Shown piece by piece: positions 3,220 to 18,623 of a stretch of DNA of 37,342 nt. The notes under the pieces are model-generated. The model had not been told where the DNA came from. It ran no database searches and was given only the letters and a program-made list of their open reading frames with translations. Position 1 is the first letter of the stretch. Every line of letters begins with the position of its first letter. The position numbers were made by a program, and so were the translations under genes. Source of the DNA: Alphaproteobacteria bacterium (GTDB taxonomy: Bacteria > Pseudomonadota > Alphaproteobacteria > GCA-2731375); the NCBI GenBank assembly GCA_028824965.1, contig JAPKBD010000005.1, positions 1 through 37,342 on the forward strand, read 5' to 3'.

Positions 3220-4515
3220 ATGCAGATGACATCTACGGATAGAACTGCAGACGTCGTCATCATTGGGGCCGGCATCGCAGGCACTGCCGCCGCCTACTAT
3301 CTGGCCAAGGGCGGTGCAAAGGTTATCGTCTGCGAAAAGGGCGTGATCGCAGGCGAGCAATCCAGCCGCAATTGGGGCTTTGTCCGCCAACAGGGCCGGG
3401 ACCCTGCTGAAATTCCCCTGATGATGGAAGCCAACAAAATCTGGCGTGGGTTGGAGCGGGAGTTGAACGCAGACCTGGAATGGCTGGCAGCCGGCAACAT
3501 GGTCACTTTCGCCAATGACGAGGAAGCCGCAGGCTGGGAAGATTGGCGGCAATTGGCCCAGGGCTACGGCCTATCCGCAAAAATTCTTAGCCGCAGTGAG
3601 TTAGACGCCATGATCCCCGGCAATGCCCTTGCCTGCCAAGGTGCCATCCTGACAGAAAGCGACGGCCAAGCCGAACCCACCAAAGTCACCGCTGCCCTCG
3701 CCCGCGCCGCGGAGGGCCGGGGCGTTGAGTTTCAAACGAACTGCGCCGTCTTTGAGGTTGAGACGACGGCAGGGGCCGTATCCGGTGTGGTGACGGAACA
3801 TGGCGTCATCCGCGCACCCGTGGTGGTATGTGCTGCGGGCGCTTGGTCGGGACGGATGCTACGGGGCCTTGGGCTGAAGCTGCCGCAAATGTGGATCAAG
3901 GGCACCGTTGCACGCACAACGCCGGGTCCGATAATCTCCCATACCGCGACCTGGACCGGGGTCGCCTTTCGCCAGCGCCGGGACGGTTCATTCAATATTG
4001 CACAGCGTTCCGCCGATCATGACCTGACCATCGACAGCATCTTGAACCTGCCATCATTCCTGGGCAGTTTTGCCTCCAACCGCCGAGCCATAAAGCTGCA
4101 CCTGAACCGTCTGTCGTTGGATTTGCTGCGGGGTAGTTTTTCCAAAGCCGCCCTGGCGAAGGAACTGACCACCTACCGCATCCTGGACCCGGCCCCTAAT
4201 ATGAAAGTCGTGAACGAGACGTTGCAGACCCTGCATCGCCTGCTGCCGGAAACGAAGGATGTGACGATTGAGCGGAGTTGGGCCGGCTATATCGATATGA
4301 CACCTGATATGCTGCCGACCATTGGTGCGGTCGATCAACCGTCGGGCTTGGTGCTGGCCACCGGGTTTTCCGGTCACGGTTTTGGCATGGGCCCAATCGT
4401 GGGCCGTTTGGTTGCCGAATTGATCCAAAAGGGCGAGCCGTCCCTGGATCTGAGCGCGTTTCGCTTCAGCCGCTTCCACGACGGCACGAACTTAACACCA
4501 CACAGCGTGGTCTAA
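3220..4515 (+). CDS. FAD-dependent oxidoreductase, DAO/DadA-like
   Basis: This belongs to the D-amino-acid/glycine/sarcosine oxidase-type flavoenzymes. The N-terminal Rossmann motif VVIIGAGIAG (GAGIAG at residues 16-21) ends with an acidic residue (CEK, about residue 39) that would bind the ribose of FAD. The C-terminal GLVLATGFSGHGFGMGP segment is typical of the second FAD-contact region of this family. The track ORF starts at 2953, inside the ATPase gene, and its first 89 codons look like out-of-frame sequence. I chose the ATG at 3220 (MQMTSTD), with 3226 as an alternative. At 431 aa it has normal family length. It probably oxidises an amine or N-methylated amino acid imported by the adjacent ABC system, but the substrate cannot be read from the sequence. 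Confidence 0.88.
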   Translation: MQMTSTDRTADVVIIGAGIAGTAAAYYLAKGGAKVIVCEKGVIAGEQSSRNWGFVRQQGRDPAEIPLMMEANKIWRGLERELNADLEWLAAGNMVTFANDEEAAGWEDWRQLAQGYGLSAKILSRSELDAMIPGNALACQGAILTESDGQAEPTKVTAALARAAEGRGVEFQTNCAVFEVETTAGAVSGVVTEHGVIRAPVVVCAAGAWSGRMLRGLGLKLPQMWIKGTVARTTPGPIISHTATWTGVAFRQRRDGSFNIAQRSADHDLTIDSILNLPSFLGSFASNRRAIKLHLNRLSLDLLRGSFSKAALAKELTTYRILDPAPNMKVVNETLQTLHRLLPETKDVTIERSWAGYIDMTPDMLPTIGAVDQPSGLVLATGFSGHGFGMGPIVGRLVAELIQKGEPSLDLSAFRFSRFHDGTNLTPHSVV

Positions 4516-15065: not shown

Positions 15066-15202
15066 GGCCCCGCCCCCCTCAGTTCGGTTTACCGTTTATT
15101 TTACCGTTCAGTGTAGCGTCAGGTTTACGAAGGATATAGCCCCATCGCACCATTCAACGGCGAAAACTTAGAACTATCCAAAATTGCCTCATTTCAGTGC
15201 GT

Positions 15203-15230
15203 TAACCTTTACTTAACGAATTGCGGATAG
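15203..15230 (+). promoter_or_regulatory. Candidate sigma-28 (flagellar) promoter
   Basis: TAACCTTT (15203-15210), 12 nt, then GCGGATAG (15223-15230) resembles the FliA consensus TAAAGTTT-N11-GCCGATAA, with 6 of 8 matches in each box and one extra spacer base. Transcription would begin just upstream of the riboswitch, in front of the flagellin gene, which fits a FliA target. Confidence 0.5.
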
Positions 15231-15254
15231 CGTCACGGTCCCTTGTAGTATGCA

Positions 15255-15393
15255 GGGGTGCGAACCAAGAAATGGCAAACCGTCGGCAACGGCGGGACGC
15301 AAAGCTACCGGTCCTACACGATCCAGAATGACATCACACGGAAGATTAGAAATTTTCCAAAGGATGCGGATCGAAGGATAGCGGAGTTATCTC
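15255..15393 (+). promoter_or_regulatory. c-di-GMP-I (GEMM) riboswitch, flagellin leader
   Basis: The leader carries the GEMM core almost exactly: AAATGGCAAACC, a short hairpin (GTCGGCAACGGC), GGGACGCAAAGCTACCGG, and on the 3' side GGATAGCGGAGTTATC, which matches the family GGUAGCGGGGUUACC end. The 5' GGGGT can pair with ATCTC (with wobbles) as P1. The flagellin ribosome binding site (AGGAAGAG) follows directly, so ligand binding probably controls translation or access to this site. The distal hairpin is longer than usual. Bases upstream of the start read as protein in the ORF track only by accident. Confidence 0.85.
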
Positions 15394-15410
15394 AGGAAGA
15401 GACGCATAAA

Positions 15411-16229
15411 ATGGCCTTATCTATCAATACGAACAACGGCGCGGCCATCGCGCTGCAAAAATTTTCAGCTAACAACAACGACCTGAACAAAATTCAAAAC
15501 CATATTTCGTCGGGCAAAAAAGTCGACAGCCCCAAGGACGATGCCGCGACTCTTGCCATCGCCCAGGAATTGCTGGCCACCTACGCTGGCACCGGTGCCG
15601 TTCGAGACGGCCTCAGCCGCGCATCCGCGACCATTGATGTGGCCGTCGCAGCCGGTGAAGCCACCGCAGATATTTTGGTGGAGATGAAAGGCCTTGCTGT
15701 ACAAGCCAGTCAGGAAGGCCTGGACCAGACATCCCGGGATGCACTGAATTCCGCCTTCACCGCCCTGCAGGAACAGGTCACAACCATCAACGACAGCGCA
15801 TCGTTTGCAGGCAGCAACCTGATCGCAGCCGGTGCTGCGGATCAAAATGTATTGAGCGACGACAGCGGTGCGACCATCAAAGTCGCAGCCCAGGATTTGT
15901 CCAGCGACGGCCTGGGCCTGACTGGGCAATCATTGGGCGATGCGGGCAATGCTGCATCCGCCCTGGCCGCGCTTGATGCAGCGATCACGGATGCCTCGTC
16001 GAAATTGGCAAATCTGGGCAGTTCCGCCAATCGGATTGAAACCCATAACGTTAACTTGGGCGTGCAAAATGATACGGTCGCGGCCGGTATCGGGAACCTT
16101 GTGGATGCAGATTTAGCCGCCGACAGCGCCGCCCTGAAATCCGCTGAATTAAAGCAGGCATTGGGTGCCGTCAGTCTGGGCATCGCCAACGCCGCGCCCT
16201 CCAGAATTCTCAGTCTGTTCGGCGGGTAG
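15411..16229 (+). CDS. Flagellin
   Basis: A short flagellin of 272 aa, the filament subunit exported by the flagellar type III system. The N-terminal helical domain begins ALSINTNNGAAIALQKFSANNNDLNKIQNHISSGKKVDSPKDDAATLAIAQ. The C-terminal helix has SSANRIETHNVNLGVQNDTVAAGIGNLVDADLAADSAALKSAELKQALG. The variable central domain is only about 100 residues. The start at 15411 (MALSIN) is chosen because the 51 codons before it lie in the riboswitch. A sigma-28-like promoter and a c-di-GMP riboswitch precede it. No other flagellar genes are in the window, so it is an isolated filament gene, possibly one of several paralogues. Confidence 0.95.
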   Translation: MALSINTNNGAAIALQKFSANNNDLNKIQNHISSGKKVDSPKDDAATLAIAQELLATYAGTGAVRDGLSRASATIDVAVAAGEATADILVEMKGLAVQASQEGLDQTSRDALNSAFTALQEQVTTINDSASFAGSNLIAAGAADQNVLSDDSGATIKVAAQDLSSDGLGLTGQSLGDAGNAASALAALDAAITDASSKLANLGSSANRIETHNVNLGVQNDTVAAGIGNLVDADLAADSAALKSAELKQALGAVSLGIANAAPSRILSLFGG

Positions 16230-16303: not shown

Positions 16304-16981
16304 ATGGCTGAAATCAGTTACCCAGAGGATTGGCGAGAGATCCCAGCGGAGACATGGGCAAAAATGCTCATGACGCCGGAACAATATACCGCCATGCGTT
16401 TAGAACGTTTGACGCGGGAGGAAGCGGCACCGGCTGTGGGTGACCCTGCACCGGATTTCAGGCTGGAACTGCTGACGCCGAAGGGCAAACGCACGGGCCG
16501 GATGGTCAGCCTCTCATCCAGTTTCGCGTCTAACCCCCAGAACTCCGGTCGGCCCGTCGGCCTGATCTTCGGCTCCTACACCTGACCGCCTTTTAGAATT
16601 CAGTCCGTGCGGCTGAACGAAATCGCGACACAGTATGGGGCGGAAATGGATTTTTATTGCGTCTATATCCAGGAAGCCCACCCCGATGATGGTTGGCAGG
16701 TGCAACATAACCTGGATGACGACATCATCCTGAATACGCCGAACTCCATTGAAGAACGGGCGGATATTGCCGAAGTTTGCGCCTTGCGGCTGAGTATGGC
16801 CATGCCCATGTTATTGGATGATATGACCGATCAGGCAGACAAGCTGTATAACGCTTTGCCGGAGCGGCTGTACGTGATCGACAAGACCGGCATCGTCCGC
16901 TTTAAGACAGTCGCCGGCTCCCGCGGCTTCGAGCCGGAGGCATGGGCCTCGGCCATCGCCGAATTATTGCGGAGCCCCTGA
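16304..16981 (+). CDS. Deiodinase-like selenoprotein (in-frame UGA = Sec)
   Basis: The track gives two ORFs (16304-16585 and 16607-16981) in the same frame, split by one TGA at 16583-16585. Read through, they give one 225-aa thioredoxin-fold protein with Sec at residue 94. The join reads IFGSYT-U-PPFRIQS...YIQEAHPDDGWQV...ALPERLYVID, closely matching iodothyronine deiodinases (FGSCT-U-PSF, YIEEAHASDGW, ALPERLYII in human DIO1). The His of EAH, needed for activity in that family, is present. A hairpin with a GU-containing loop follows the UGA. The start has a strong site (GGGGAGGA). No thyroid substrate is implied in bacteria; reductive removal of halogen or another Sec-dependent redox reaction is a reasonable guess. 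It lies 74 nt after flagellin. The second 'start' (GTG 16607) has no ribosome site. Confidence 0.88.
16583..16617 (+). promoter_or_regulatory. Candidate bacterial SECIS element, deiodinase-like gene
   Basis: After the UGA (16583-16585), TTCAGTC (16599-16605) pairs with GGCTGAA (16611-16617) around the loop CGTGC. The stem is seven pairs with one G-U, and the loop has G as its second base, followed by U. The loop G lies 22 nt after the UGA, in the range known for SelB-binding bacterial SECIS hairpins. Confidence 0.65.
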
Positions 16982-17020: not shown

Positions 17021-17598
17021 TTGTTGAAACTTAGCTGCACAATTTTGTTGGTGGCGTATGGCGTTTTGGCCTTTAACCCGACCCTCGTACTTGCTGCATC
17101 CAGCCATCAACCCTATTCGGGGCAGCAGTCGCGCGACATAAAGGCGTTGTCACAAGAGCAAATCGACGGATATTTGAATGTCAGCGGCATGGGTTTTGCC
17201 AAAAGCGCCGAACTTAACCATTAACCGGGGCCCCTACATCTGCGCCAGCTGGCCGACAGCTAGATCTGACTGTTGAACAATTATCCGCGATATCTGCAAT
17301 CGAGGCAGATATGAAATCAGAGGCTAGACGGCTGGGACGGACAATTCTGGAAAAAGAGCGGCGTCTCGACAATCTGTTTGCCAAAAACCAGGTTGATGCG
17401 ACGGCAATGCGTACGCTGACGGTGGCAATTGGCCAAATGCAGGGAGAACTGCGCGCTGTGCACCTGAAGGCACATATCCAGGTGCGCGCCCTATTAAACG
17501 ACCATCAAATTATCTTATACGACCAACTCCGGGGATATGGGTCCGATAAGCAAGATCGAACCCAACATGGTAAACATTCCAAGCATACCAAACATTAA
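17021..17598 (+). pseudogene. Broken secreted Spy/CpxP-like helical protein
   Basis: Two ORFs in different frames look like halves of one periplasmic protein. The first (17021-17224, TTG start, GAGGAG site) has a signal peptide (CTILLVAYGVLAF...LVLAA) and SREIKALS-like text (SRDIKALSQEQIDGYL...GMGFAKSAELN). It meets TAA at 17222-17224 where homologues known to me continue NGYPGP; the same frame indeed continues PGPLHLRQLAD. About 17258 a one-base shift is needed to reach LDLTVEQLSAISAIEADMKSEARRLGRTILEKERRLDNLF, the second ORF (ending 17598, His/Lys-rich tail). So a nonsense change and a frameshift, or a single shift just before the TAA with a diverged linker. The helical E/R-rich second half resembles Spy/CpxP or heavy-metal-sensor-like proteins. 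Sequencing error remains possible. Confidence 0.7.
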
Positions 17599-17607
17599 CG
17601 GCTATAT

Positions 17608-17649: not shown

Positions 17650-17762
17650 GCGCGGAAAAATGCAGGAAAATCGGGTCATGGGCCGATTTTTAACCTTTTC
17701 GACCCGCTCCATTAACGTCTTATTAAGACCTGTTCGCTAAATTGATCAAACACCGCGATAAG

Positions 17763-17865
17763 CGGTAGCGACCACGAAATGGCAAACCGTCGGAAATGGC
17801 GGGACGCAAAACCACCGATCCGTCTGGCCAGACATTCACTTGGCAAGCGGACAGCGGGGTTACCG
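17763..17865 (+). promoter_or_regulatory. c-di-GMP-I (GEMM) riboswitch, Sel1-protein leader
   Basis: This is an almost textbook GEMM aptamer. CGGTA (17763-17767) pairs with TACCG (17861-17865) as P1. Inside are AAATGGCAAACC, hairpin GTCGGAAATGGC with a GGAAA-type loop, GGGACGCAAAACCACCGATCC, a second hairpin (GTCTGGCCAGACATTCACTTGG region), and GCGGACAGCGGGGTTACCG. The ATG of the Sel1-repeat gene lies 14 nt after P1, so translational control is likely. Confidence 0.92.
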
Positions 17866-17879
17866 AAAAGGGCTACGCA

Positions 17880-18623
17880 ATGTTTACGGCAATAATAGAC
17901 GCCAAAACCAAATTCCTCTCCCGCAGCAAAACTGAGTCTACCTCTCGCAAGAGCCGCATCTTGTTGGCCTGCATGACCCTCTTTGTTTTGAGCACGAGCG
18001 TCACTGGCATGGCCCAAGCTGAAATCGCCCTGGCCCGCGCCGACGTCGCCCTGGAAGTTCTGGCCTCTCTGGACCAGGAGGAGCGAGCCCCCCTCCACCA
18101 CCTGACATCCGTCCGCATTCTTGCCGAACAGGGCAACCTCAACGCACAGCACGAATTGGCGGTTTTATTGGCCACCATTCGGGGCGGCAAAGCAGATTTT
18201 GCGGAAGCCGCTTATTGGCTGAAACAGGCAGCCGATCGCGGCCACCGCAGCGCGCAGTTCTGGTTGGGCAATCTGTACATGCAGGGTGCGGGCGTACCGC
18301 AGGATTTCGACCGCATGATTAAATGGTGGCGTCAGGCGGCAGAGCAAGGCGACGCCAGCGCCCAATACGCCCTTGCCGCGGCCTTCCGCGATGGCCGTAT
18401 GGTAGAGCGCAACCTGGCCCTGTCCCGTGCATGGTTCTTCATGAGTTCCGGCAAAACCGGTATGGCCTTTGTAAAATCAGCAATGACACCGTCCAAGAAA
18501 GTCGCCGCACCCATTCAAAACGCCAACGTCCAGGCCGAAACCACTTTCATCGAAGAAGAAGCACCAGAGGTTGAGCGGGTTGGTCGGGGTGGTCGCGTCA
18601 AGACAGGGCGGGATCGTCAATAG
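17880..18623 (+). CDS. Secreted Sel1-repeat (TPR-like) protein
   Basis: A 247-aa protein with a signal peptide (basic n-region, hydrophobic ILLACMTLFVLSTSVTGMAQA, cut likely before EIAL) and about three Sel1-type helical repeats: AEQGNLNAQHELAVLL, AADRGHRSAQFWLGNLYMQGAGVPQD and AAEQGDASAQYALAAAFRDGRMVERN. Such repeats bind protein partners in the periplasm. The C-terminal tail is charged and disordered-looking (EEEAPEVERVGRGGRVKTGRDRQ). I moved the start from 17796 to the ATG at 17880 because the earlier codons lie in the riboswitch. GEMM control suggests a role in motility, adhesion or envelope changes governed by c-di-GMP; the exact function is unknown. Confidence 0.85.
   Translation: MFTAIIDAKTKFLSRSKTESTSRKSRILLACMTLFVLSTSVTGMAQAEIALARADVALEVLASLDQEERAPLHHLTSVRILAEQGNLNAQHELAVLLATIRGGKADFAEAAYWLKQAADRGHRSAQFWLGNLYMQGAGVPQDFDRMIKWWRQAAEQGDASAQYALAAAFRDGRMVERNLALSRAWFFMSSGKTGMAFVKSAMTPSKKVAAPIQNANVQAETTFIEEEAPEVERVGRGGRVKTGRDRQ

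Follow-up and report, generated by a model that had tools for sequence, protein, structure and literature searches.

The gene for a probably periplasmic Sel1-repeat protein in a marine alphaproteobacterial metagenome-assembled genome (G000) is preceded by a c-di-GMP-I (GEMM-I) aptamer, set in a CtrA-type, flagella-linked leader. We consider it likely, though well short of certain, that this leader controls translation of the Sel1 gene, most likely as an OFF switch at high c-di-GMP. The window analyzed is a stretch of 37,342 nucleotides, and all window features given below lie on its + strand. A cmscan search of the whole window returned two matches at the Rfam gathering level, both to c-di-GMP-I (RF01051). 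The match at 17771–17867 scored 62.0 bits (gathering threshold 35; E = 5.8e-10) and covered the model over its full length, positions 1–87. This was the covariance-model search proposed by the initial annotation, and it bears out the near-consensus GEMM aptamer described there upstream of the Sel1 gene. The second aptamer lies at 15264–15394, before a flagellin gene, in agreement with the earlier description of two GEMM elements about 2.5 kb apart. The 14-nt distance previously given between the aptamer and the start codon is correct when counted from an aptamer end at 17865; the model ends at 17867, which leaves 12 nt to the ATG at 17880.

The Sel1 aptamer contains the P1, P2 (with a GAAA tetraloop) and P3 helices. 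G20, A47 and C92, the recognized ligand contacts of c-di-GMP-I (PMC3764141), are all intact; G20 (17781) and C92 (17863) were placed by the model alignment and A47 (17808) by carrying that register along the sequence. Across 45 related leaders from the family’s genomes, pairing in P1–P3 was retained in 96% of cells and compensatory changes occurred, including C-G/U-A and G-C/A-U exchanges in P2 and P3. The canonical P1 consists of two base pairs, C17775-G17865 and G17776-C17864. This short P1 is supported by G000 and G009, whose flagellin leaders exchange the first pair from C-G to A-U. Judged by its sequence, 17771–17867 is a genuine c-di-GMP-I riboswitch aptamer that would be expected to bind its ligand. 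A perfect 5-bp P1 had also been claimed. Its arms, CGGTA at 17763–17767 and TACCG at 17861–17865, are indeed complementary, but the helix is not the aptamer’s P1. It would pair C92, a ligand contact, and U90 (17861), which forms part of the pair closing P3. Its 5’ arm is restricted to G000 and its closest relative, G009. Because C92 and the last P3 pair would be consumed, the 5-bp helix would exclude the bound state. Most of its 5’ arm is contained in the 3’ arm of a separate hairpin at 17752–17766. In the Sel1 leader of one relative, G003 (L064, aptamer at about 4413–4503), position 20 is A rather than G. An A at this position is associated with GEMM-I variants that sense 3’,3’-cGAMP.

Upstream of the aptamer, a TTAA-N7-TTAA box of the CtrA type (TTAACGTCTTATTAA; 17712–17726, 8/8 match) occupies the -35 region of the Sel1 promoter. 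A -10-like element, GCTAAATT, follows at 17736–17743, across a 9-nt gap that is fixed in most flagellin (FlaA) and Sel1 leaders. The flagellin promoter in the window is arranged in the same way, with an 8/8 box at 15202–15216 and the -10-like element GATAGCGT at 15226–15233, 9 nt past the box. Boxes matching at 7/8 or more positions were found upstream of the GEMM leaders of FlaA (10/11), Sel1 (7/8) and CheY (8/8), compared to 0.7–0.9 per gene class expected from shuffles, and the -10-like element usually lay 9–10 nt after the box. CtrA sites at activated flagellar promoters show the same motif at the same -35 position (PMC6180460). The Sel1, FlaA and CheY leaders thus appear to carry CtrA-type promoters, with CtrA itself as a putative regulator here. 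A sigma-28 (FliA) promoter for flagellin was considered from an initial resemblance and rejected, as TTAA-N7-TTAA fits the boxes better; FliA was not found above the cut-off in any of 15 genomes. Transcription of Sel1 would start at about 17750, just ahead of a 5’ hairpin (ACCGC-GATAA-GCGGT, 17752–17766) that stands immediately upstream of the aptamer. Sel1 orthologues retain a hairpin here despite differing arm sequences (mean z -1.78, Stouffer -5.0).

The Shine-Dalgarno (SD) region of the Sel1 gene, AAAAGGG at 17867–17873, starts at the last base of the aptamer. An SD abutting the aptamer was found in the leaders of all five GEMM-I gene classes, and in the GEMM-Sel1 copies the SD and the ATG lie about 0–3 nt and 11–12 nt past the aptamer, respectively. 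The space between the Sel1 aptamer and its ATG is insufficient for a terminator. Given this lack of space and the position of the SD, control at translation initiation is most likely. In the proposed mechanism, a transcript starting near 17750 would form the stable 5’ hairpin and then the aptamer. Binding of c-di-GMP at the three-way junction (G17781, A17808 and C17863) would lock P1, P2 and P3, and the folded aptamer would alter ribosome access to the Sel1 SD, as suggested by an SD that begins at the aptamer’s last base. Partition-function folding was run with the aptamer constrained and unconstrained, and the change in SD accessibility differed in sign between orthologues. An outer helix around the SD (UGCGU/ACGCA, formed by an upstream GCG and a CGC immediately ahead of the ATG) was rejected. 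Interspecies arm swaps were equal in energy and gave no covariation support; the arms are conserved in many FlaA and Sel1 leaders, being invariant rather than covarying.

Five GEMM-I elements were found in G000, on four contigs. They precede genes for flagellin, the Sel1 protein, a 136-aa CheY-like regulator (Pfam Response_reg match), a 76-aa FlaG-like protein and a 56-aa membrane protein. GEMM-I elements recur before these five classes in other members of the genus. The FlaG-like label was assigned by inspection; Pfam searches of the 76-aa, 56-aa and adjacent small proteins gave no match. With 11 GGDEF domains above the cut-off encoded in the genome, synthesis of c-di-GMP is very probable. 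The idea of a local c-di-GMP-controlled island is not upheld by this scattered distribution, nor by the genes between and flanking the two aptamers of the window (uracil phosphoribosyltransferase, a deiodinase-like protein and an SDR), which are without a GEMM. The local unit is the flagellin–Sel1 pair, with its own aptamer before each gene. The two genes are separated by 1–2.7 kb in the window and in G005, G007 and G009, and are non-adjacent in G001 and G003. The FlaA and Sel1 aptamers share 86% identity, compared to 88% within one class and 73–80% for other class pairs. This likeness suggests a duplicated leader, from which both the flagellin and Sel1 leaders are likely derived. These sequence comparisons make it most likely that the Sel1 gene is part of a motility-linked regulon with scattered members.

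At a broader scale, the GEMM-I family was present in 33 of 385 sampled genomes of the class. In several other alphaproteobacteria (L015, L077, L092, L099 and L053), GEMM-I stands before a gene for a ParA/MinD-like ATPase, and a short ORF frequently follows the aptamer immediately. The gene for the 56-aa membrane protein (L035, 4692–4859) and its orthologues in L042, L045, L062, L073, L074 and L081 each have their own GEMM-I upstream. A shorter look-alike of this protein is also encoded behind a GEMM-I in G013, a genome without a flagellin, FlhA or Flg_bbr_C match, and the 56-aa protein may therefore not be flagellar. A literature search returned no paper joining GEMM with Sel1, and c-di-GMP riboswitch, flagellin and Alphaproteobacteria occurred together only in one general biofilm roadmap. 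The riboswitch class is an ordinary one; its regulon context is apparently undescribed in the literature searched.

The flagellin aptamer (57.6 bits) ends 16 nt before the ATG at 15411 of a 272-aa flagellin (15411–16229; Pfam Flagellin_N 3.3e-26, Flagellin_C 8.1e-12) and has U at position 92 (15390). U92 was observed in 8 of 11 flagellin aptamers (one per genome) compared to 1 of 34 other GEMM-I of the family (Fisher p = 6e-6, with leaders counted without regard to phylogeny). C92 is retained in the Sel1, CheY, FlaG-like and nearly all small-membrane-protein aptamers. Mutants at G20/C92 were reported to bind c-di-GMP less well (PMC9049102). This pattern suggests that flagellin may be tuned differently from Sel1 through C92U. 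We tentatively raise, as a rather improbable extension, a single regulon graded by sequence, in which U92 flagellin leaders would respond at another threshold or to another cyclic dinucleotide, since a G/A mixed ligand might be accommodated by G20 together with U92, and Sel1 would be switched separately from the filament. The gene-specific C92U pattern provides a natural test of different thresholds among riboswitches of one regulon.

By analogy, we infer that the Sel1 leader binds c-di-GMP and acts as an OFF switch, so that Sel1 translation would be shut off at high c-di-GMP along with that of flagellin, the CheY-like regulator and the FlaG-like protein. The OFF direction is preferred because of the identity of these co-regulated genes, for which repression by c-di-GMP would be the more natural outcome, and because the GEMM-I of C. 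difficile flgB is an OFF switch (PMC6200980). An ON switch is, in our judgment, fairly unlikely. Here, C92 and C93 of the unliganded RNA would pair with the GG of the SD in a CC-GAAA-GG mini-hairpin, and c-di-GMP would claim C92 and free the SD, so that Sel1 and its co-regulated genes would be made at high c-di-GMP. Without the aptamer constraint, the predicted ensembles of 7 of 8 Sel1 leaders have C92/C93 among the main pairing partners of the SD. However, this pairing spans just 2–3 bp and follows automatically from the conserved ACC and a purine SD, and is not independent evidence. GEMM-I ON switches are known, such as Vc1, where expression falls with lower c-di-GMP (PMC4744006). It is highly improbable that the Sel1 aptamer is vestigial and no longer affects regulation. 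Loss of C92 is seen in the flagellin copy of many genomes, but G20, A47, C92 and every helix are intact in the Sel1 copy, and C92 is present in 8 of 8 orthologous leaders despite their sequence divergence.

The Sel1-repeat protein itself (247 aa; 17880–18623; PF08238, E = 6e-18) has a core at about residues 70–170, with block-mean pLDDT of 72–93 over residues 71–170 in the AlphaFold model, and a disordered C-terminal tail. Inspection of the orthologue alignment revealed a signal-peptide-like N-terminus (..TSVTGMAQA) in intact copies. The protein is probably secreted or periplasmic, and the location given by the initial annotation is reasonable. The Sel1 proteins encoded behind a GEMM group into a single clade (1 change, support 93/93, 94% of bootstraps), and the aptamer is directly upstream of the gene in 8 of 8 genus genomes with this clade. 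Five Sel1 paralogues of the same genus are without a GEMM and fall outside the clade. Three flagellated relatives (G002, G006 and G010) have the flagellin GEMM and lack a Sel1 protein of this clade, which indicates that the protein is accessory. We infer a role in the flagellum or its envelope neighborhood.

A natural deletion was observed in G004. Its locus (L040) is collinear with that of G005 (L037) as far as the flagellin aptamer; the match then picks up again at the Sel1 aptamer, which in G005 lies about 1,048 bp downstream. The flagellin gene has been lost exactly from between the two tandem aptamers, apparently by recombination between them, and the remaining leader is a hybrid riboswitch. 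The Sel1 frame in G004 is broken by frameshifts and a stop, damage that could partly be assembly error. Unlike several relatives, G004 gave no FlhA and no Flg_bbr_C match. G000 and some of the fragmented relatives likewise yielded no FlhA, an absence that may reflect incompleteness; a Flg_bbr_C protein is present in G000. The decay in this one lineage fits a flagellar role for Sel1.

The Sel1 protein could instead be an AlgK- or HcpC-like factor for exopolysaccharide, adhesion or the envelope in general, lying beside flagellin by chance and switched opposite to motility. We regard this as unlikely, while giving it some weight. The closest solved structures are assorted generic Sel1 proteins, with AlgK and other envelope Sel1 proteins listed among the matches, and the GEMM-less Sel1 paralogues have non-flagellar neighbors. 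Chance proximity is harder to reconcile with a leader common to flagellin, whose aptamer resembles that of Sel1 more than other class pairs resemble each other, with the CtrA-type promoter on the Sel1 leader, and with Sel1 decay in G004, a genome in which no core flagellar genes were detected. A MotX-like stator-ring component was also considered, MotX being a flagellar protein with Sel1 repeats; this is very unlikely. The reach to MotX (8z5n_C) is weak, as is that to AlgK (for 8z5n_C, profile E = 8.1e-8; structural model E = 1.2e-3, TMq 0.40), and generic Sel1 chains score far better, with no MotX-specific similarity beyond the Sel1 repeats. MotY_N (PF18393) matched in 0 of 15 genomes, a search in which the control was also silent. 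The protein is a generic Sel1 solenoid and is not assigned to MotX. A flagella-linked role remains our preferred reading, and would connect this uncharacterized and probably secreted protein with both the flagellum and c-di-GMP.

The Sel1 aptamer resembles V. cholerae Vc2/Vc1 (RF01051) in its full-length model match, P2/P3, GAAA tetraloop, G20/A47/C92 contacts and 2-bp P1 apex (G14-C93 in Vc2). However, more than 100 nt separate Vc1 from its downstream ORF, whereas the Sel1 SD abuts the aptamer with the ATG 12 nt downstream, and the Sel1 leader has an extra hairpin at its presumed 5’ end and a CtrA-type promoter. C. difficile Cdi-1-3 (Cd1), before the flgB operon, is likewise a class I c-di-GMP riboswitch on flagellar genes; it is a transcription-termination OFF switch on one early operon, in contrast to the separate leaders of flagellin, Sel1, CheY and others described here, with no terminator space. 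More than one GEMM-I per neighborhood is also seen in the triple-tandem Bc3-5 of B. thuringiensis, but there three aptamers share a single leader, and here two aptamers serve two neighboring genes. The CtrA flagellar promoters of Rhodobacter sphaeroides fla2 and Caulobacter also have TTAA-N7-TTAA near -35 at flagellar genes; the difference here is a c-di-GMP riboswitch layered in the same leader, with CtrA dependence putative. Discussions of flagellar control in Alphaproteobacteria usually center on CtrA and protein receptors. The present leaders point to a dispersed riboswitch regulon in this class, with a riboswitch layer atop CtrA-type promoters and the SD directly at the aptamer.

Two further features lie between the flagellin and Sel1 genes. 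An iodothyronine deiodinase-like ORF (16304–16981), matching PF00837 over its second part, contains an in-frame TGA within GSYT-U-PPF that looks like a selenocysteine codon, and the same TGA split of this ORF occurs in relatives. The region at 17022–17600 holds the apparently frame-broken remnant of a gene for a small secreted protein, which is intact in L037 (8419–8979) and L038 (8177–8731).
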